A stretch of DNA of 21,242 bases, taken from IMG/VR virus record IMGVR_UViG_3300023216_000898, positions 1-21,242 of that record. One strand, written 5' to 3'. The translations under genes were made by a program, and so were the position numbers. Origin of the DNA: a virus. The notes below the pieces were generated by a model. It saw nothing but the letters and a program-made list of their open reading frames with translations. It did not search any database and had not been told where the DNA came from. Position 1 is the first letter of the stretch. The number at the start of each line of letters is the position of its first letter. Positions 13,607 through 21,242 of this stretch are shown here, in pieces.

Positions 13607-13795
13607 ATGAGAAAAGCGTTGAAACTATTTGTCGTGAGACAGAGTAGCGGAGCATACGTCAAGGATGACGAGGGTAATGTTCTGTTCTTCTGCGACAAAC
13701 GGTCGGCCAAGCTGGTCAGGGATGAGTTAGGGCAAGGTAACCATACCGTGTCCTTCGGCCCCGATCATCATAAACATACCGGAGAACAGACATGA
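13607..13795 (+). CDS. 62-residue unknown protein
   Basis: AGGAG lies 8 nt before the ATG at 13607-13609. The protein reads as small alpha/beta: MRKALKLFVVRQSSGAYVKD (strand-turn), NVLFFCDKRSAKLVRDEL (strand, helix), then a His-rich tail PDHHKHTG. The 'strand-turn-strand, D-x-R-x-A-K-x-x-R-D-x-L helix' pattern recurs in small phage proteins but I know no function. It is coupled to the ATPase gene by ATGA, so it may belong to that set. Confidence 0.65.
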   Translation: MRKALKLFVVRQSSGAYVKDDEGNVLFFCDKRSAKLVRDELGQGNHTVSFGPDHHKHTGEQT

Positions 13796-14775
13796 ACTCG
13801 GAGAAGATTATCGATACAGTCATGAGACTGTGGAGTTTACGGCGGCCTGTGTACATTAGCGGTCCACCAGGCGGCGGCAAGACAAGCGTTGTCAAACAAG
13901 CTGCCAAGCGGCTCGGCGTGGAGTATATCCACAAGCACATGCCGTCCCTGCTCATCGAAGATTTCGGTGTGCCGGACATGGCTACTAAGGAGCCGACGTT
14001 CGACTACAAGCTCCCGGCGTGGTTCCCCACTGACCCTGATATGGAAGCTATCTTGTGCTTCGATGACCGAGGCCAGTGTGGTAGTGATTTACAGAAGATC
14101 ATTGCCAATATCCAGGAGGAGCGGGAGCTTCACGGCCACAAGTTGCCTGATCGGATAATGATTATCTCGACGGGTAATCGGATTGAGGACAGGGCTGGCG
14201 CAAATAGGGTGCTGTCTCACCTCGCTGACCGCGAGACGGAACTTGAGTACGAAACTCTGCTTGATCCGTGGTGCAGGTGGGCTATCGACAACAACGTGCA
14301 TCCTTCGGTGGTTTCGTTCCTTCGGTTCCGGCCTAACCTGTTGCACGATTTCGATGCACAACGCCCTAAGAACCCTACGCCTCGGTCGTGGGTCAAGGGG
14401 GTTAGTGAGATACTCGACGTTGTTGCCCCTGACGCAGAGTTCGACTGCTTCAAGGGTGCTATTGGAGAGGGTGCTGCGGCTGAGTTTGTGGGCTTTCGTG
14501 AGATTGAGAGGGCGTTGCCTGATATCGATAAGCTCATCAAGAACCCGCTGGTGGCTATCGTGCCTACTGATCCGGCTACTCTCTACGCCATAAGCGGTGC
14601 GATTGCTCATCGGGCTACAGTGGATAACTTCGACAACGTGTTGAAGTACACTGAGCGTATGCCGCCCGAGTTCGGGGTACTCACTGTGAGTTACGCAACT
14701 CGTAAGAACGACGCCCTTACTGAAACAGACGCCTTTACATTGTGGTGCGTGGCTAACCAAAGCGTGCTGTTCTAG
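13792..14775 (+). CDS. MoxR-type AAA+ ATPase
   Basis: The 327-residue protein has Walker A GPPGGGKT (24-31), Walker B ILCFDD (87-92), sensor-1 STGNR with Asn129, and a conserved DRAGANRVLSHLADR stretch (about 133-147) holding the likely arginine finger. This order matches MoxR-family AAA+ ATPases, which form hexamers and act with a VWA-domain partner to remodel or activate a target. A MIDAS-type VWA protein follows four genes later in the same operon. Walker B ends in Asp-Asp instead of the usual Asp-Glu; hydrolysis may still work. GGAG lies 7 nt before the ATG. Confidence 0.9.
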   Translation: MNSEKIIDTVMRLWSLRRPVYISGPPGGGKTSVVKQAAKRLGVEYIHKHMPSLLIEDFGVPDMATKEPTFDYKLPAWFPTDPDMEAILCFDDRGQCGSDLQKIIANIQEERELHGHKLPDRIMIISTGNRIEDRAGANRVLSHLADRETELEYETLLDPWCRWAIDNNVHPSVVSFLRFRPNLLHDFDAQRPKNPTPRSWVKGVSEILDVVAPDAEFDCFKGAIGEGAAAEFVGFREIERALPDIDKLIKNPLVAIVPTDPATLYAISGAIAHRATVDNFDNVLKYTERMPPEFGVLTVSYATRKNDALTETDAFTLWCVANQSVLF

Positions 14776-15035
14776 TGTTTATTGAGAGTTATTATCGTGG
14801 GCTGGTTATGTCGGAAGATGCGGCATGGGTTTGGCTTGAGTGGTTGTGGGAGAAGCACAACGTGTTGAGCATAGTCATAGAGGACCGGCAACGTAATGGT
14901 CCGGCTATATTTCCCGCTGCGGTTATCAACTGCGCCTCTGGCCGGATACTTGAGTACCCTAAGCTCTATGAAGTGTGGTGTGTGCTCCGCCGGTTACATG
15001 GGTTGGACTACGGTAATAAGAGAAAAGGGTTATGA
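14775..15035 (+). CDS. Unknown protein between ATPase and DUF3150-like gene
   Basis: The frame starts at GTG 14775-14777 overlapping the ATPase stop (TAGTG), or at ATG 14808; neither has a clear ribosome site, so coupled translation from the GTG (86 residues) is preferred. The protein is Trp-rich (WVWLEWLWEKH) with a second half VINCASGRILEYPKLYEVW. No family is recognised. Lying inside the ATPase-VWA operon, it may be a partner or adaptor. Confidence 0.55.
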   Translation: MFIESYYRGLVMSEDAAWVWLEWLWEKHNVLSIVIEDRQRNGPAIFPAAVINCASGRILEYPKLYEVWCVLRRLHGLDYGNKRKGL

Positions 15036-15214
15036 CAAATGATAAGCGACCGTTCACGTTCAGCTGCCGCGAGGACTACCAAGACTTCTTGGCGTTCTGC
15101 TGTAAGAAGGAGCGGCCTATCTGCGGCTTAGGTACGGCTAACGATTGGGCTGTAGCGAGGCCCGATCTGCTGCTGGCGTGGAGAACTAAACTCAAACTTA
15201 AAGGAGATAACTAA
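15032..15214 (+). CDS. 60-residue unknown protein
   Basis: The ATG at 15032-15034 overlaps the previous stop (ATGA), with AAAGGG two bases upstream, a short spacing. The protein has three Cys in the first half (SCREDYQDFLAFCCKKERPIC), then a helical end (NDWAVARPDLLLAWRTKLKL). The Cys are not in a standard zinc spacing. No family is recognised. It overlaps the next gene by one base (TAATG). Confidence 0.6.
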   Translation: MTNDKRPFTFSCREDYQDFLAFCCKKERPICGLGTANDWAVARPDLLLAWRTKLKLKGDN

Positions 15215-16071
15215 TGGCACATTTATCAAGTAAGGCGGTACTCGTAAACTTGAGTATCCGTCAGTGGGTTGCTCGTAAGCTGGATCGAAGAGCCAGTAAC
15301 GAGATTGCGAGGCTCAACGGTGCAGACCTCCGAGCGGGCAACTATAATAAGTCTCTGTTGCCTACCTGCAACTCGTTGGGGGCAGTCAAAAAGGAGACTG
15401 CTATGATCCGTGAAGACTTCTACCGCAATGTCCTACCGTGGGGCATTGAGGGTACGTATATCTTAACATCCAGTATGTATATGGACTTCATGCAGGAACA
15501 TCAGGCCAAGCGGTCTGGTTGGGATAGTCTGGTTAGCGTGTTCCTCGACGGCTATGACGACGCCGTGCTGGATGCGCAGCGCATCTTGGGAAGCCTTTAT
15601 AAAGCTAGTGAGTACCCGGCGAAGGATGTGTTGGCGCTTAAATTCAGCATGGATTTGAGAGTGCTGCCTGTACCAATGTCCGGTGACTTCCGTGTGGAGC
15701 TTGCTGATGCTGAACTCGAAGCGATGGAAGCAGACGTTGAGAAACGTGTTACAGAGAGTGCGGCGGTAGCCATGAAAGATGTCTGGCAGCGCCTCTATGA
15801 TAAGGTGTCGTGGCTGCAAGGTCGGCTCGCTGACCCCAAGACTACGTTCCACGACGAGACCTACAATGACGCACAGGACTTGGTGGGTATGCTGTCCAAG
15901 CTCAACTTCAACGAGGACGCTGATCTTGAGAGGCTACGCCTCGACGCTGAGACCAAACTGTTCAAGTACCACCCCCAGGCTCTGCGGAATGATCCTATTC
16001 TACGCACCGATACCGCTGACGATGCGCGGAAGATCATGGATAAAATGAGCGTGTTCATGGGGGGATTGTGA
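15214..16071 (+). CDS. DUF3150-reminiscent partner of the MoxR-VWA pair
   Basis: The 285-residue protein starts with LVNLSIRQWVARKLDRRAS (about 10-28), then YNKSLLPTCNSLGAVKK and a long, mainly helical body (about 170-230 looks coiled) containing VLPVPMSGDFRVEL. The layout of an N-terminal 'V-x-L-x-I-x-x-W-x-x-R-K' strand and a PVPxxxDFR element in an operon with a MoxR ATPase and a VWA protein recalls DUF3150 proteins, which often keep such company. AAGGAG precedes the ATG. It could be the substrate-binding or assembly subunit. Identity is uncertain; context carries much of the weight. Confidence 0.65.
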   Translation: MAHLSSKAVLVNLSIRQWVARKLDRRASNEIARLNGADLRAGNYNKSLLPTCNSLGAVKKETAMIREDFYRNVLPWGIEGTYILTSSMYMDFMQEHQAKRSGWDSLVSVFLDGYDDAVLDAQRILGSLYKASEYPAKDVLALKFSMDLRVLPVPMSGDFRVELADAELEAMEADVEKRVTESAAVAMKDVWQRLYDKVSWLQGRLADPKTTFHDETYNDAQDLVGMLSKLNFNEDADLERLRLDAETKLFKYHPQALRNDPILRTDTADDARKIMDKMSVFMGGL

Positions 16072-16139
16072 TGGAGTGGGCAGATGCTGCTGTGTTGATT
16101 GCGTTGTTTATATCAATCGCCTGGATTGCAAGGAGATAA
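16071..16139 (+). CDS. 22-residue membrane micro-peptide
   Basis: The ATG at 16071-16073 overlaps the previous stop (TGATG); the frame is MEWADAAVLIALFISIAWIARR and stops TAA at 16137-16139, 3 bp before the next start. Residues 6-20 form a membrane span bracketed by acidic N-terminus and Arg-Arg end. The ribosome site of the next gene lies inside its last codons, so it may only be a coupling device. Translation is not proven. Confidence 0.45.
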   Translation: MEWADAAVLIALFISIAWIARR

Positions 16140-16142
16140 CTA

Positions 16143-17273
16143 ATGACTGATGAAGAACTGATGCACCGGCTGTCTAAGGCTAAGACACGGTTAATACTCA
16201 AGCACCCGTTTGTTGGGATGGTGGCTATGAACATGCCGTTCATATTGGACGATAATGTGCCAACCGCAGGAACGAACGGGAAGCGGGTTATATTCAATCG
16301 TCGCTTCATGGCGGGGCTGACCGACGACGAGTTGGTATTTCTCGTAGCCCACGAATGCATGCACCCCATGCTGGAACACAACTACCGCAAGAAAGGGCGT
16401 ACTCACAAGCGGTGGAACCATGCTGCCGACTACGTTATCAACAAGTTGTTGGTGGACGATCAGATCGGCACGATGCCTAAGTTGGGGCTGCTCTCAGATG
16501 AGTTATACAATGAGGGCGGCGGCACTTCCGACGGTATCTACAATATCCTGCCGGAAGAACCCGAGGACGGTGGCGGCGAGTACTATAAGGGTACAGGCTC
16601 CGGTCTGGATGACTGCCAGGACGGTGAGGGTACTCAGGCCGAGCAGGACCAAGAGGCTGCTAAGTGGAAGGTGAAGGTGGCTCAGGCTGCTCAAGCCGCT
16701 AAGATGTGTGGTAAGCTCTCCGCTGGTATGAAGCTGCTGGTCGATGAGATACTCAACCCGAAAGTCGATTGGCGTGAGGTTCTCCAACAGTTTGTTATCA
16801 AGTGCAAGACTGATTGGAGAACTTGGGCGAGGCCCAATCGTCGCTTCATAACTCAGGGTATGTACTTGCCGAGCCGCGACGGCGAGGCTATCGGTGAGTT
16901 AGTAGCGGCGATTGATTGCTCAGGGTCTATAGGCCAGGAGGAACTGGATCAGTTTGCTGCCGAGGTAAAGGTGGTACATGAGGATCACCGCCCCTCTAAG
17001 CTGACGATCCTATACTTCGATAGTTGTATCTCTCATACAGACGTATACGAGAGAGATGATACCGTCGAGATAAGCCCCCATGGCGGCGGTGGTACTGCCT
17101 TCTCTCCTATATTTGAGATGATAGAGGAGCTAGGAATTGAGCCGGTGTGCTGCATCGTGTTGACGGACCTGTACTGCTCTGACTATGGGCCTACCCCTGA
17201 GTATCCGGTGCTGTGGGTGTCCAACGCTAAGGACGGTTCGGATACCCCGTTCGGTGAAACGGTGATGATGTGA
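16143..17273 (+). CDS. HExxH metallopeptidase-like and VWA (MIDAS) protein, DUF2201-like
   Basis: The 376-residue protein has two domains. The N-terminal part contains FLVAHECMHPMLEH with HExxH at 70-74 and a downstream WNHAADYVIN (91-100), whose Asp96 may be the third ligand, as in the DUF2201 N-terminal domain. A charged, Gly/Glu-rich linker follows (about 125-170). The C-terminal VWA domain has AAIDCSGSI (MIDAS D258-x-S260-x-S262), a GGGGT element with Thr319, and VLTDLYCSD with Asp342. It is the expected partner of the MoxR ATPase upstream. AGGAG lies 8 nt before the ATG. Peptidase activity is plausible but unproven. Confidence 0.88.
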   Translation: MTDEELMHRLSKAKTRLILKHPFVGMVAMNMPFILDDNVPTAGTNGKRVIFNRRFMAGLTDDELVFLVAHECMHPMLEHNYRKKGRTHKRWNHAADYVINKLLVDDQIGTMPKLGLLSDELYNEGGGTSDGIYNILPEEPEDGGGEYYKGTGSGLDDCQDGEGTQAEQDQEAAKWKVKVAQAAQAAKMCGKLSAGMKLLVDEILNPKVDWREVLQQFVIKCKTDWRTWARPNRRFITQGMYLPSRDGEAIGELVAAIDCSGSIGQEELDQFAAEVKVVHEDHRPSKLTILYFDSCISHTDVYERDDTVEISPHGGGGTAFSPIFEMIEELGIEPVCCIVLTDLYCSDYGPTPEYPVLWVSNAKDGSDTPFGETVMM

Positions 17274-17599
17274 GGATAAACAACAGCCGGATGGGCGCTT
17301 ATATAGCTCGTCATGAAGCGTTTACGACCAACAACGATACGGTCTTCGGGGAGTGGCAGTCGGTTAGTGGTGGTGAGCCGGTCTACGTTGTGTATAGCTA
17401 CGGCTATCACTTCCCGATGTATGTGTACGCCGAGGATCAATGGTTCCAATCGGATGCTCACTACTCCTCAACTACTTCTAGGCATATGAGCTATGCCTAT
17501 CCGGGTAAAACCACCGTCGTAACAATGGAGCAACTCCAGTACATGATTAGGCGTGGATACACGGTGATGGTTAGTGAGCTATTGAGAGGACACATATGA
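17270..17599 (+). CDS. DUF8033-like protein
   Basis: The start is GTG at 17270-17272, overlapping the VWA stop (GTGA). The 109-residue protein contains YVVYSYGYHFPMYVY (39-53), WF at 58-59, and YSSTTSRHMSYAYP (65-78), the 'VVYSYGxHWPxxVY ... YSxTTSKHxSQxxP' pattern I know from DUF8033, a domain of many phage and plasmid proteins of unknown function. A C-terminal helix TMEQLQYMIRRGY follows. It is coupled to the next gene by ATATGATG. A role linked to the VWA pair is possible, by position only. Confidence 0.72.
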   Translation: MRINNSRMGAYIARHEAFTTNNDTVFGEWQSVSGGEPVYVVYSYGYHFPMYVYAEDQWFQSDAHYSSTTSRHMSYAYPGKTTVVTMEQLQYMIRRGYTVMVSELLRGHI

Positions 17600-17787
17600 T
17601 GGATACCCTCATGCTGGCACTTGGTTACATAGGAGTAATCATGTACTGCGTTGAGCAACACATTGAGCGCCAACGAATGGAGACGGAGATAGACAAGATG
17701 TGTCACTCTGTTATTCAAGTGGCGCTCGGTAAAGCAACAATAAGACTAAACGGCACAACTATAACTTTCATATCAACTAAGGAGTAA
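17596..17787 (+). CDS. 63-residue single-span membrane protein
   Basis: The frame begins ATGATG at 17596, with AGAGG upstream, overlapping the previous stop; either Met may start. Residues 4-19 (TLMLALGYIGVIMYCV) form a membrane span. A charged helix (EQHIERQRMETEIDKM) and a C-terminal beta hairpin (TIRLNGTTITFIST) follow. No family is recognised. The topology suggests an inner-membrane anchor with a cytoplasmic tail. Confidence 0.65.
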   Translation: MMDTLMLALGYIGVIMYCVEQHIERQRMETEIDKMCHSVIQVALGKATIRLNGTTITFISTKE

Positions 17788-17791
17788 GACT

Positions 17792-18466
17792 ATGGCAACA
17801 GTGAGATTTTCTGGTGAACTTAAGACCGATATTATCCACAGAGCGGAACATCTTTTCCAGAAGCGGATAAACGATGCCGAGGAAGCTATGCCCGATAAGT
17901 GGGGTGCTGGTATCTATGATAAGCTGTTCGAGAAAACTAGGAAACATATGGATGCGCTCCCTGAGAACTACTTTGAGACGCTGGATACCTTCACCATCGA
18001 TAGCTTAACCTGGACAGATCGTTCCGACTTCCGTGACTATTCGGTGCGTATCCAACTGGGGCAGACACGCCGCTTACCCCCAACTTTGGGTAAAGAACTT
18101 CATGGGCTTATGCAGGACGCTGGTAATACTCGGTTCCGTGGGCTGCAACTCGACGGTAATGACCCTAGGTGGGAATACCTCAAGACGGGGTACACTAAGC
18201 ATTGTCAGGCTATTGATGCACTAGTGGCTAAAAAGAAGGAGTTCACGGACGGCGTGAAGGCTGTGATTACTACGTTCTCTACCCTGGCTCCAGCACTCAA
18301 GGAGTGGCCTGCTCTGTGGGACTTGTTGGACGAAGATGTCCAAGAGCGTCATAAGAAGATTGTTTCTAGGACTAAGCGTGTTGTTACGATGGGTGACGGT
18401 GAGAACGCGGCGGTGAACCTTAATAAGATGACTGCTGCCGTCGTCGCAACTAAGTTGACGAGTTAG
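17792..18466 (+). CDS. 224-residue phage protein, weak Nmad5 resemblance
   Basis: AAGGAG lies 7 nt before the ATG. The N-terminal half, ELKTDIIHRAEHLFQKRI, then IYDKLFEKTRKHMDALPENYFETLDTF, then RLPPTL, recalls the layout of Nmad5 proteins, named as possible DNA-modification factors in phages ('A-x-x-x-F-x-x-R ... YxxLFxxxxxxxxxLPxxWF'). The C-terminal half is helical and basic. No catalytic motif is visible to me, so the resemblance is a lead, not an assignment. It may equally be an unrelated operon partner. Confidence 0.6.
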   Translation: MATVRFSGELKTDIIHRAEHLFQKRINDAEEAMPDKWGAGIYDKLFEKTRKHMDALPENYFETLDTFTIDSLTWTDRSDFRDYSVRIQLGQTRRLPPTLGKELHGLMQDAGNTRFRGLQLDGNDPRWEYLKTGYTKHCQAIDALVAKKKEFTDGVKAVITTFSTLAPALKEWPALWDLLDEDVQERHKKIVSRTKRVVTMGDGENAAVNLNKMTAAVVATKLTS

Positions 18467-18475
18467 GGAATGATT

Positions 18476-19324
18476 ATGCATATGCATTATGAATACGCTC
18501 GTATTCTTCCTGATTACGCTGCGGCTGTTAAGGAGTTCAAGCGTTGCCGTTCGCCAGAGAAAGGGCGACCACTTCGTAAGTGGTGTAGGCTATATAAAGA
18601 GGGTAAGAACTATATCCTCAAGATGTTCACCTACTCCTTTACTAGTGAAACGTATGGCTCTGGCTATGAGTGGAAGGCGCTAGTAACGATCCACCCCGAT
18701 GACACCGTTACTTTTGTCCTCTCTTCGGGGGCGGTGCAACAAAATTCTCAATCTCTTACAACAGCTATGTGGAGAGTTCTTCCCTTTGCATTCGAGCGTA
18801 AGAGAGCGGGGCTGTACGTTATAGCTGGCACGAAGTCTAATGCGGTGAAGCATGGTGGGTGGCGGTGGATTAAAGTCAATGCGCCGGAATACTTCAAAGG
18901 TATCCGGTTCAACATGCTTACTGGTGAGTGCCTCAACCCTAGGCGTAGTGAAGCGGAGCGAGTGCGCCCTGTGATTAGGCGTCACTGGCTGCGTGATGTG
19001 AAACTCTTTAAGAAAGGGTTAAGGGCTAGGGCGTTGCTCGGTGCTATGGAGCAGGCGCAGCAACGAGTTGCGGAGGAGCAGGATAAAGCCCCTTGGGTGT
19101 ATCATAAATTACTCTACGTGAAGCGAGCAGAGGACAACTCGGAGGAAGGTATTCAGATGTTGATGGAGTGTATACGCGACAAACGATACCCTCGCGTTAT
19201 CATGGATCGGTTTGCTAGGGAAGCTATGGCCCACAACATATCTTTAGAGGAGGGCATTGATAGGGTGTTGTCTCGTAATAGCCTAGCTCTACGCTATGCC
19301 TATGGCGTAATCTCTCCGCTATGA
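18476..19324 (+). CDS. 282-residue unknown phage protein
   Basis: ATG at 18476-18478 was chosen because AGGG lies 7 nt upstream; ATG at 18470 is too close. The protein has a basic N-terminus, a beta-rich part YILKMFTYSFTSETYGSGYEW ... TFVLSSGAV, then a 'TAMWRVLPF' element, a basic middle (RSEAERVRPVIRRHWLRD) and a helical end. The 'strand, ExxxxxTxxT...W-x-x-L' pattern recurs in phage proteins of unknown role. No enzyme motif is seen. Its stop overlaps the next start (ATGA). Confidence 0.65.
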   Translation: MHMHYEYARILPDYAAAVKEFKRCRSPEKGRPLRKWCRLYKEGKNYILKMFTYSFTSETYGSGYEWKALVTIHPDDTVTFVLSSGAVQQNSQSLTTAMWRVLPFAFERKRAGLYVIAGTKSNAVKHGGWRWIKVNAPEYFKGIRFNMLTGECLNPRRSEAERVRPVIRRHWLRDVKLFKKGLRARALLGAMEQAQQRVAEEQDKAPWVYHKLLYVKRAEDNSEEGIQMLMECIRDKRYPRVIMDRFAREAMAHNISLEEGIDRVLSRNSLALRYAYGVISPL

Positions 19325-19545
19325 GCGACAAGGCTGATATGAAGCGTCTTAGGAAGAGTGCTATCAAGCGGGGGTGGCGGGACATAACTAAGTCTCGCCG
19401 CCGTCGATCCCATTACATACTGGAGTGGGTCAGTGGCGAGAGGGTCACTATGTCCTTATCGCCAAGCTGTAGTCATGCCATGAAGAACTGCGCTGCTGAT
19501 CTGCGGCGTGTCGAGCGTCGAGGAGTTGACAACCCCGACGCGTAA
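19321..19545 (+). CDS. HicA-like small protein (orphan)
   Basis: The 74-residue protein has a helix KRLRKSAIKRGWRDIT (8-23), basic RRRRSHYILEWVSGERVTMSL (26-46) with the SHY signature (30-32), and SPSCSHAMKNCAADLRRV. This matches the HicA fold: helix, strand with a His, strands, helix ending LRR. HicA toxins cut mRNA; phage relatives often lack the partner. No HicB-like antitoxin follows. It could be a phage dsRNA-binding HicA homologue without toxin function. The ATG overlaps the previous stop. Confidence 0.6.
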   Translation: MSDKADMKRLRKSAIKRGWRDITKSRRRRSHYILEWVSGERVTMSLSPSCSHAMKNCAADLRRVERRGVDNPDA

Positions 19546-19575
19546 CGCTACAACTACGCAAAGTTAGGAAAATAA

Positions 19576-20010
19576 ATGAACAAATGGGACAATAGGTATC
19601 TAGAACTCGCTGCGTTAGTCTCCACCTGGAGCAAAGACCCATCGACCAAGGTGGGCGCTGTCATAGTGGGTAGGCGCAAGACGCAGATAGCCGTGGGATA
19701 TAACGGCTTCCCACCAGGGATAGAGGACAGCCTTGAGCGGCTGAATGATCGCGAGATGAAATACTCACTGATCCAACACGCGGAGCGCAACGTATTGGAT
19801 AACGTATCATTTTCTCCCTATGGAGCTACGCTCTACGCCACTATGTTTCCTTGCCCGCAATGTGCCCTGAGCATTGTGAGCAAGGGCATTAAGATCGTCA
19901 TCGCTCCGCATTGGGAGTGCGGCCCTGAGAGGTGGCAGCTTAAAAGCATACAAGCCTATAACATACTCCGGGAGGCCGGTATAAGCGTTGTGAAGGTCAG
20001 AGAGCAATGA
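19576..20010 (+). CDS. dCMP deaminase
   Basis: The 144-residue protein has the cytidine/deoxycytidylate deaminase zinc site: HAE (68-70) with catalytic Glu70 and PCPQC (92-96) with Cys93 and Cys96. N-terminal TWSKDPSTKVGAVIV (17-31) and NGFPPG (43-48) match dCMP deaminases. It turns dCMP into dUMP, the substrate for thymidylate synthase, and so raises dTTP or precursors of modified pyrimidines. GGA lies about 6 nt upstream of the ATG. The next gene overlaps its stop (ATGA). A thymidylate synthase is not in the window. Confidence 0.95.
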   Translation: MNKWDNRYLELAALVSTWSKDPSTKVGAVIVGRRKTQIAVGYNGFPPGIEDSLERLNDREMKYSLIQHAERNVLDNVSFSPYGATLYATMFPCPQCALSIVSKGIKIVIAPHWECGPERWQLKSIQAYNILREAGISVVKVREQ

Positions 20011-20456
20011 CTGTAATCGTGTGGGACGGTGAGACCCTAGCCACCGATGCGTCTGCAAGTGACGGCCTAGCTAAGTGGTCGTCTCTGAAAGCGTGGTATC
20101 ATGGAGAGGGTGAAGACCGCGTGATCCTGTCAGGCACAGGTTCACTTCATGTTATACTAGCTATGCGTAATTGGTTCATGGATGGTGCGCTCCTCAACGA
20201 GTTGCCGAGCATCCAATGCACATCACATTTTTGTCACTTTCTTGTCGTGTCACCCTATGTGGGGCTGTACTGGTACGAGCAAGGTAATATCTCTATCGAA
20301 CATGGCTACAAACCAATCGCGTTTGGTGAGGGTATGGAGGTGGCACTAGGCGCTCTGTTCATGGGTGCTACGTCAGAAGAAGCGGTTAAAGCCGCTAATC
20401 AACACTCGGTTCATTGTGGGCCGGGGGTGAAAACTTATAAGATAGAGAGGAACTGA
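20007..20456 (+). CDS. Proteasome-beta/HslV-like Ntn-hydrolase fold protein
   Basis: The 149-residue protein begins MTVIVWDGETLATDASAS, the start pattern of proteasome-beta and HslV-type Ntn hydrolases: Thr2 would be the N-terminal nucleophile after Met removal, with Asp14 on the second strand. SGTGSLHVILAM (42-53) matches the Gly-rich element around Gly47 of beta subunits, and FGEGMEVALGALFMGATSEEAVKAA (about 108-132) matches the conserved helix. The candidate catalytic Lys28 sits at roughly the expected place. No ATPase partner such as HslU is adjacent; an AAA+ ATPase is 6 kb upstream. Peptidase activity is inferred. Confidence 0.78.
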   Translation: MTVIVWDGETLATDASASDGLAKWSSLKAWYHGEGEDRVILSGTGSLHVILAMRNWFMDGALLNELPSIQCTSHFCHFLVVSPYVGLYWYEQGNISIEHGYKPIAFGEGMEVALGALFMGATSEEAVKAANQHSVHCGPGVKTYKIERN

Positions 20457-20457
20457 C

Positions 20458-21138
20458 ATGCGTAGGCTATCAACTATAGAGATTAAGAAAATTAAGCGGC
20501 TTTGGGTAAAGTATCCTTATGCTACGACTGAATTTATAGCACGTAAGACAAAATGGTCTCCCCCAACTGTTCGTATACATTATCCCTTTAAGGATTATGG
20601 GATGCACTTCTCTGGGAGCCAAGTGGCCCATTGCCTAGACCTTCACCCTAATGCCAGTGATCAGGGTATAGCAGCTAAAGTGAGACGGTATATATCCACT
20701 GTCCGTAGGGTGCGTAAGAAGATGGACGCTATGGAGCACAAGAGGCGGATGTCTCCTGAGAAGGCGGCTTGGCCTATGCCTAACCCAGCTGAGCTTAATC
20801 TTGTGAGACTCAAGAAGCTAGCCACTACGAAGCCTGATGGTGGTACGAAACACGACGATGGTAAGCTCCCCTACGACTTGATTGCCCCAGAGTTGTTGTC
20901 GAGCATCGCGCTTGTCCTACAGCACGGTGAGAAGAAGTACGGACGCCGCAACTGGGAGAAGGGTATGCGTTGGGGCCGTCCGTTTGCCGCCATGATGAGG
21001 CATATGTGGGATTGGTGGTGCGGTGATAAGCTGGATAGGGATAGTGGCCTTAGTCATTTAGCCCATGCTGCTTGCTGCCTTATGTTCCTCATAGCATACG
21101 AGGAGCGTAAGATTGGTACGGATGATAGGGGTGAGTGA
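20458..21138 (+). CDS. HTH-like extension fused to dATP/dGTP diphosphohydrolase domain
   Basis: The 226-residue protein has a C-terminal domain (about 128-216) with KHDDGKLPYDLIAP (131-144), HGEKKYGRRNW (156-166) and RHMWDWWCGDKLDRDSGLSH (181-200), which matches the domain named dATP/dGTP diphosphohydrolase, N-terminal (PF18909, formerly DUF5664), a MazG-like pyrophosphatase group that uses acidic metal ligands. The N-terminal 90 residues are basic, with a helix-turn-helix-like stretch (LSTIEIKKIKRLW ... TTEFIARKTKWSPPTVRIHY) and a further basic helix. The domain usually stands alone, so the fusion is unusual. AGAGG lies 7 nt before the ATG. Confidence 0.82.
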   Translation: MRRLSTIEIKKIKRLWVKYPYATTEFIARKTKWSPPTVRIHYPFKDYGMHFSGSQVAHCLDLHPNASDQGIAAKVRRYISTVRRVRKKMDAMEHKRRMSPEKAAWPMPNPAELNLVRLKKLATTKPDGGTKHDDGKLPYDLIAPELLSSIALVLQHGEKKYGRRNWEKGMRWGRPFAAMMRHMWDWWCGDKLDRDSGLSHLAHAACCLMFLIAYEERKIGTDDRGE

Positions 21139-21242
21139 TGATAATAGCGCATAAGCTGATTGCATATTTAGAACATCTTGAAAGCCCTCATGGCGAGGAT
21201 AAAACCTATGTGAGCGCGATGAAAGCGAGTGTCTTTATCGCA
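21138..21242 (+). CDS. Partial gene at the right edge
   Basis: ATG at 21138-21140 overlaps the previous stop (TGATG). The visible 35 codons (MIIAHKLIAYLEHLESPHGE ...) stay open to the edge. The start is a helix with short acidic stretch. No family can be read from this length. It continues the operon. Confidence 0.6.
   Translation, partial: MIIAHKLIAYLEHLESPHGEDKTYVSAMKASVFIA

Follow-up and report, generated by a model that had tools for sequence, protein, structure and literature searches.

A run of six genes in a viral contig

The 21,242-base IMG/VR virus record IMGVR_UViG_3300023216_000898, analysed here over its whole length (the window), carries on its plus strand a run of six open reading frames (ORFs) that opens with a gene for a MoxR/midasin-like AAA+ ATPase and closes with a gene for a zincin-like metallopeptidase bearing a VWA domain. 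Among the four ORFs between them is one for a 285-amino-acid protein related to DUF3150, and it is the module formed by these three genes that concerns us here. The viral nature of the record is backed by the minus-strand genes of its left half, which encode SU10-type adaptors, an SU10-type portal, a major head protein and a terminase. An original prediction, made from the letters of the window, had placed the run in a single operon, and both this layout and its gene positions were borne out: all six ORFs lie on the same strand where they had been predicted, and neighbours overlap or nearly abut. The genes and motifs of the run are as follows.

13792..14775, plus strand: AAA+ ATPase, MoxR/midasin-like, 327 amino acids, phrog_1297, assigned by profile matches
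13861..13884, plus strand: Walker A motif GPPGGGKT of the ATPase, placed by alignment
14050..14067, plus strand: Walker B motif ILCFDD of the ATPase, its second acidic residue Asp not Glu, placed by alignment
14775..15035, plus strand: p86, an 86-amino-acid ORF whose GTG start overlaps the ATPase stop; a local insertion with no homologue found
15032..15214, plus strand: p60, a 60-amino-acid ORF with C-terminal homology solely to a small ORF at the same place in locus L002
15203..15216, plus strand: start context GGAGATAACTAATG (ribosome-binding site and start) of the DUF3150-like gene; the VWA gene has the identical one
15214..16071, plus strand: DUF3150-related third subunit, 285 amino acids, assigned by co-occurrence and family profile
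16071..16139, plus strand: p22, a 22-amino-acid hydrophobic ORF, not conserved, which may be spurious
16132..16145, plus strand: start context GGAGATAACTAATG (ribosome-binding site and start), here of the VWA gene
16143..17273, plus strand: zincin-like metallopeptidase and VWA protein, 376 amino acids, phrog_1314, DUF2201_N and DUF2201
16350..16364, plus strand: HECMH (HExxH), putative zinc site of the VWA protein
16914..16928, plus strand: metal ion-dependent adhesion site (MIDAS) motif DCSGS of the VWA protein, with T318 (17094-17096) and D342 (17166-17168)

Co-inheritance of the ATPase, DUF3150-related and VWA genes

Scanning IMG/VR with the 285-amino-acid protein yielded 93 relatives, of which 80 were kept. 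Across these 80 DUF3150-seeded viral loci the VWA gene was found every time and the ATPase gene in 78, the two loci without it being cut by contig ends just before the DUF3150-like gene. To avoid seeding bias, we performed an independent scan anchored on the VWA protein, using profiles for the three families. Of the 59 viral loci whose upstream DNA spans 3.5 kb or more, 53 carried all three. In 84 held-out loci the seed profile alone is enough to recover the third gene (worst E-value 2e-12), and among loci holding all three genes the order ATPase–DUF3150-like–VWA is kept in 56/57 viral and 17/19 bacterial cases. As the median gaps are 52 nucleotides from the ATPase gene to the third gene and 76 from there to the VWA gene, the module genes are usually adjacent. 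Both bacterial order exceptions (L114 and L117) are Bacteroidota with the arrangement ATPase–VWA–DUF3150. Pairwise distances among the three proteins in viral loci correlate with rho 0.87-0.91, while those of module proteins correlate with DNA polymerase distances at 0.82-0.88 and with terminase distances at 0.34-0.72; these correlations are descriptive, since the pair sets differ.

Triads with the zincin-VWA protein were also found on plasmids of Cupriavidus, Paraburkholderia, Caballeronia and Rhodovastum, two of them adjoining type IV secretion genes, and in a Chitinophaga region whose neighbours, read by eye, are conjugative-transposon and ParB-like genes. Plasmid pCAR1 carries the classical type, MoxR–DUF3150–VWA, and its DUF3150 protein matches 1118 plasmid records, 969 of them typed conjugative; PF11348, the Pfam model of DUF3150, was absent from 14 control genomes. 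The gene order is ATPase, unknown, ssb, bet, exo, DUF3150, VWA on an IncC plasmid and ssb, recT, exo, MoxR, DUF3150, VWA on a Citrobacter plasmid. Taken together, the ATPase, VWA and 285-amino-acid genes co-occur far beyond chance, and gene content and order show the three to be co-inherited, with this arrangement, across phages, plasmids and conjugative elements.

Two side observations concern these surveys. On Synechocystis pSYSA and a Sphaerotilus plasmid (L094 8527-10257, L096 6848-8644), an ATPase–VWA pair lacking DUF3150 has DUF262-domain proteins nearby, and these share 28-29% identity with each other over 231 amino acids. The 62,412-base record IMGVR_UViG_3300042344_000078 (L075, L076, L207) has the triad near both contig ends, which suggests long terminal redundancy or an assembly overlap.

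The original prediction had counted three embedded partners between the ATPase and VWA genes. There are four intervening ORFs, of which the 285-amino-acid one is the only one conserved and, judged by its co-occurrence, the only true partner. No tblastn relative of p86, p60 or p22 was present in any of the 80 DUF3150-seeded loci, and p86 and p22 lacked one across 83 loci. Profile and tblastn searches for the three as partners were empty save for one weak p60 relative, in the corresponding position of L002, the nearest locus (41% over 27 residues, E-value 7e-5 in a single comparison). Other small ORFs occupy p60's place in L003, L004, L005 and L027, and L002 has at p22's place a hydrophobic 25-amino-acid ORF, which is suggestive although unalignable with p22. 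Because the last codons of p22 are the ribosome-binding site of the VWA gene, p22 itself may be spurious; the RNA around it shows no unusual structure (z -0.21). The start context GGAGATAACTAATG is shared in the window by the 285-amino-acid gene and the VWA gene only, against 0.03 matches expected by chance. Co-occurrence elsewhere is therefore absent for p86 and p22, almost absent for p60 and clear for the DUF3150-like gene, and the six-gene order is seen nowhere else while the ATPase–DUF3150-like–VWA order recurs. The spacer genes other than the 285-amino-acid one are thus mostly local extras.

Sequence and predicted structure of the three proteins

The 285-amino-acid window protein has no match in Pfam, PF11348 included, at E-values up to 1. 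Six of 45 diverse members of its family match PF11348 at E-values of 0.001 or below (best 6.1e-9, 36 bits; cut-off 24.9), and hhalign of the family profile against the pCAR1 DUF3150 protein, itself an 8e-92 match to the PF11348 model, gives an E-value of 8.5e-5 over 108 columns. We label the protein DUF3150-related because only family members and the profile comparison reach DUF3150, and by the curated test it would not count as a DUF3150 member; the description 'DUF3150-reminiscent' in the original prediction holds in this sense. The DUF3150 family lacks conserved stretches. An AlphaFold2 model of the protein (predicted local distance difference test score, pLDDT, 93.3; predicted template modelling score 0.85) combines an N-terminal half of mixed alpha/beta structure with a helical bundle at the C-terminus. 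A Foldseek search with this model returned no PDB match at an E-value of 0.001; residues ~183-283 recover generic helical-bundle structures only, which does not show that the fold is new, and the eight BFVD matches are DUF3150, unnamed or uncharacterised phage proteins. No mention of DUF3150 was found in the literature library searched, and a DUF3150-type protein as third member of a MoxR–VWA module appears to be undescribed there.

The ATPase matches phrog_1297 with an E-value of 9e-65 and the Pfam AAA model with 26.8 bits, above its cut-off, and falls below the curated cut-offs of AAA_5 (21.0 bits; cut-off 22) and AAA_3, the MoxR family (12.6 bits; cut-off 27). The best solved-structure relative of its family profile is midasin (1.8e-36). 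Across 172 aligned ATPases, the Walker A lysine K30, the sensor-1 asparagine N129 and the arginines R147 and R198 are each present in 172/172. The canonical Walker B hhhhDE is absent from the window protein, which has D-D instead (ILCFDDR), a state shared by 124 of these ATPases, with D-E in 37 and E-E in 11. Where the locus has a DUF3150-type gene, 123/144 ATPases are D-D; where it has none, 0/27 are. On a tree of 45 ATPases, where phage, plasmid and chromosomal sequences are intermixed, D-D has at least two origins, all inside DUF3150-bearing groups. The association is a lineage-level correlation from few events, short of proof of coupling.

The VWA protein matches phrog_1314 (9e-103), DUF2201_N (9e-44) and DUF2201 (2.5e-26), both DUF2201 domains exceeding their curated cut-offs (PF13203, 150.5 bits against 23.2; PF09967, 92.6 bits against 26.4). 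After exclusion of alignment row L086, a wrong gene, from later work, HExxH is kept in 196/198 aligned VWA proteins and the MIDAS D-x-S-x-S in 198/198, and the His and Asp that follow HExxH are likewise conserved (H79 in 198/198, D96 in 197/198). The predicted model comprises two ordered domains (pLDDT 90), the C-terminal of which has a VWA fold (best Z 13.7, 127 residues, root-mean-square deviation 2.4). Weak matches to the metallopeptidase selecase were obtained both with the model in Foldseek and with the HExxH region in phmmer, and we regard the zincin domain as a putative peptidase. The reading of this gene as a DUF2201-like protein with HExxH and MIDAS is thereby confirmed, and the claim that catalytic motifs are intact in both proteins stands for HExxH and MIDAS and fails for the ATPase Walker B, where D-D is a conserved lineage substitution. 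In PHROG 1314 and in RefSeq (for example NC_023719, NC_055784 and NC_019516) the zincin-VWA family bears the label 'HNH endonuclease', which appears to be wrong; some phages have a gene annotated HNH next to the zincin-VWA gene.

Genomic setting, possible function and known relatives

Three further genes flank the module in the window.

13607..13795, plus strand: 62-amino-acid ORF upstream, overlapping the ATPase start, with a relative in 27/80 DUF3150-seeded loci
17792..18466, plus strand: Nmad5/phrog_1965-like gene, downstream neighbour, in 123/156 viral loci
18470..19324, plus strand: 284-amino-acid gene without any family match, downstream neighbour, in 101/156 viral loci

The 62-amino-acid gene is better conserved than the embedded small genes. 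Besides the module, the plus-strand right half of the window encodes a dCMP deaminase, a dATP/dGTP diphosphohydrolase and a homologue of HslV-family peptidases. The most frequent neighbours of the module in 156 viral loci are the Nmad5-like gene (directly downstream), the 284-amino-acid gene and genes for DNA polymerase A (92), DUF3310 (74) and a PD-(D/E)XK exonuclease (54), all of which share its strand, with terminase on the opposite one; the exonuclease is present in 17/20 long phage contigs. The module thus sits in the early/middle replication part of phage genomes. The Nmad5/phrog_1965-like gene was not annotated beside the plasmid triads looked at. Promoter and terminator scans of 10800-21242 gave results near shuffle level. 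The HslV-family (Ntn hydrolase) homologue at 20007-20456 (phrog_1040, 5.8e-20) is a possible second protease in the gene run of the module. Elsewhere in the window, the left contig end (16-752) holds tandem repeats of ~54, 114 and 390 nucleotides (69-94% matches) with a repetitive open frame that may belong to a tail-fibre gene, and two adjoining genes at 1421-2724 match the SU10 adaptor family (2.9e-10, 4.3e-22) and are probably paralogues.

Judged by their families and constant association, the three proteins probably form an ATP-driven protein-remodelling machine. The chaperone-like MoxR–VWA machine of the original prediction gains support from the conserved zincin-VWA partner, with its HExxH and MIDAS. 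By analogy with MoxR–VWA systems in general, the MoxR/midasin-like ATPase would form a ring, on which the VWA protein would dock via its MIDAS and present a client to be remodelled by ATP hydrolysis; the zincin domain may clip this client, making the VWA protein an optional protease. The constant association of the DUF3150-related protein suggests a structural third subunit, which would either couple ring and VWA protein or recognise the client. We tentatively propose, with somewhat less than even confidence, that the module is an AAA+ remodelling machine of mobile elements whose target, soon after DNA entry, is a replication/recombination complex or an interfering host complex, and not the virion. 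This early role is suggested by the polA, exonuclease and dNTP genes beside the module in phages and the ssb-bet/recT-exo genes beside it in conjugative plasmids. A more specific version strikes us as rather unlikely: that MoxR–DUF3150–VWA serves phages and conjugative elements alike as a single ATP-driven machine dedicated to the establishment of mobile DNA, protease-armed in this lineage and tuned by a D-D Walker B that co-evolved with DUF3150, and takes apart a particular host or replication complex shortly after entry.

Several observations weigh against the proposed remodelling machine. The D-D Walker B could mean slow or no ATP hydrolysis, and the homology of the phage subunit to classical DUF3150 is remote (8.5e-5 over 108 columns). 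The VWA partner in pCAR1 is a different VWA protein, and the pair does without DUF3150 in N4-like phages, phage G and S-TIM5. Plasmid neighbourhoods vary, some lying beside type IV secretion genes, and the recombination link is not uniform, with RecT in 0/20 and SSB in 1/20 long phage contigs searched. The neighbourhood argument is, moreover, guilt by association.

Other functions have to be weighed against this early role. The machine might serve host takeover or counter-defence by extracting or cleaving a host protein, for example of a defence complex, that would otherwise block both phage and conjugative DNA on entry. Phages and conjugative elements, which share the module, face the same defences, DUF3150 is absent from the control genomes, and the plain ATPase–VWA pair lies near DUF262 proteins on two plasmids; yet PADLOC defence families gave generic P-loop matches only, and the tight co-inheritance of the three genes with one another and with polymerase genes resembles housekeeping rather than fast-changing anti-defence genes, so that we consider this reading doubtful. 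A chaperone-protease for virion assembly or maturation, proposed for jumbo phages by analogy with an archaeal two-tailed virus (PMC7824862), would agree with the protease-chaperone architecture and with the S-TIM5 pair, which lies near genes annotated as virion proteins. Plasmids and conjugative elements carry the triad and make no virion, however, and in this phage and its relatives the module lies beside replication genes, on the strand opposite to terminase and head genes, with its evolution poorly coupled to terminase. The replication-region location together with the plasmid and conjugative copies makes it unlikely that the family as a whole serves virion assembly, and points to a step common to phage infection and plasmid entry; the virion maturation that the original prediction had allowed for is accordingly disfavoured, and we hold this alternative to be improbable.

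For archaeal tailed viruses it has been proposed that a CobST-like helper cooperates with a host chelatase subunit to make cobalamin; viral CobST is discussed there and reported to be widespread, and cobT is said to be often annotated as a peptidase (PMC8651126). CobS and CobT are likewise an AAA+ and MIDAS pair, but no CobT model matched at E-values up to 1, and CobS–CobT membership was rejected. Both domains match DUF2201 instead, a CobT role leaves the HExxH kept in 196/198 proteins unexplained, and the relation to phage 'porphyrin biosynthesis' ATPases is confined to the P-loop region, all of which makes such a helper very improbable. Membership of the MoxR-vWA ternary conflict systems was also rejected (bpMoxR 13.0 bits, cut-off 27; none of the neighbouring genes scanned matched VMAP).

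The ATPase/VWA pair itself is already known; what is new is the constant DUF3150-type third member and the link between phages and conjugative elements. By tblastn against 50,697 phage records, the ATPase has relatives in 661 and the VWA protein in 543, all at less than 60% identity. The pair corresponds in families, adjacency and order to gp24 (AAA+ ATPase) and gp25 (vWFA) of phage N4 and other Schitoviridae (phrog_1297 and phrog_1314; EC1-UPM gp24/gp25), which are core genes of N4-like viruses (PMC7650795) with function given as 'Unknown' (PMC2784036). There the pair lies in a non-virion region, between RNA polymerase and dCMP/dCTP deaminase genes; unlike the phage module, no DUF3150-type gene was found in the N4-like genomes searched, and those aligned have a D-E Walker B. 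The DUF3150-like gene was likewise found nowhere in the genomes of phage G, S-TIM5, phiFa and a Rhizobium phage, all of which have the pair. Group 2.2 jumbo phages have been described to carry a MoxR and metallopeptidase-vWA pair, with virion assembly suggested (PMC7824862); it shares the AAA+ ATPase and the VWA protein with an N-terminal metallopeptidase, and differs in that a third subunit is not described there. With RavA–ViaA of E. coli the module shares the general scheme of a MoxR ATPase and a VWA partner, and we claim no membership; the phage VWA partner is of the DUF2201 zincin type and a DUF3150-related third protein is present.

Among mobile elements, ORF101-103 of pCAR1 and their relatives in SXT, R391, R478 and Rts1 have the same order of MoxR ATPase, DUF3150 and VWA genes; the pCAR1 authors, who noted the conservation of the MoxR and VWA genes in R478, Rts1, SXT and R391, suggested that these act in conjugative transfer (PMC2642839). 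The pCAR1 system differs in its 604-amino-acid VWA protein, which gives generic VWA/CoxE-type matches and has no DUF2201 zincin domain, and in a DUF3150 protein with remote similarity to the phage subunit. The MoxR–DUF3150–DUF2201 triads of Burkholderiales plasmids have the same three families, order and zincin-VWA type, and differ in being plasmid-borne and without spacer genes. Recognition of a DUF3150-type third subunit in phages and conjugative elements names three proteins for co-purification, with phage N4 in E. coli K-12 and pCAR1 in P. putida KT2440 as model systems, and joins separate puzzles, gp24/gp25 of N4-like phages and the MoxR–VWA genes of pCAR1 and SXT-type elements.

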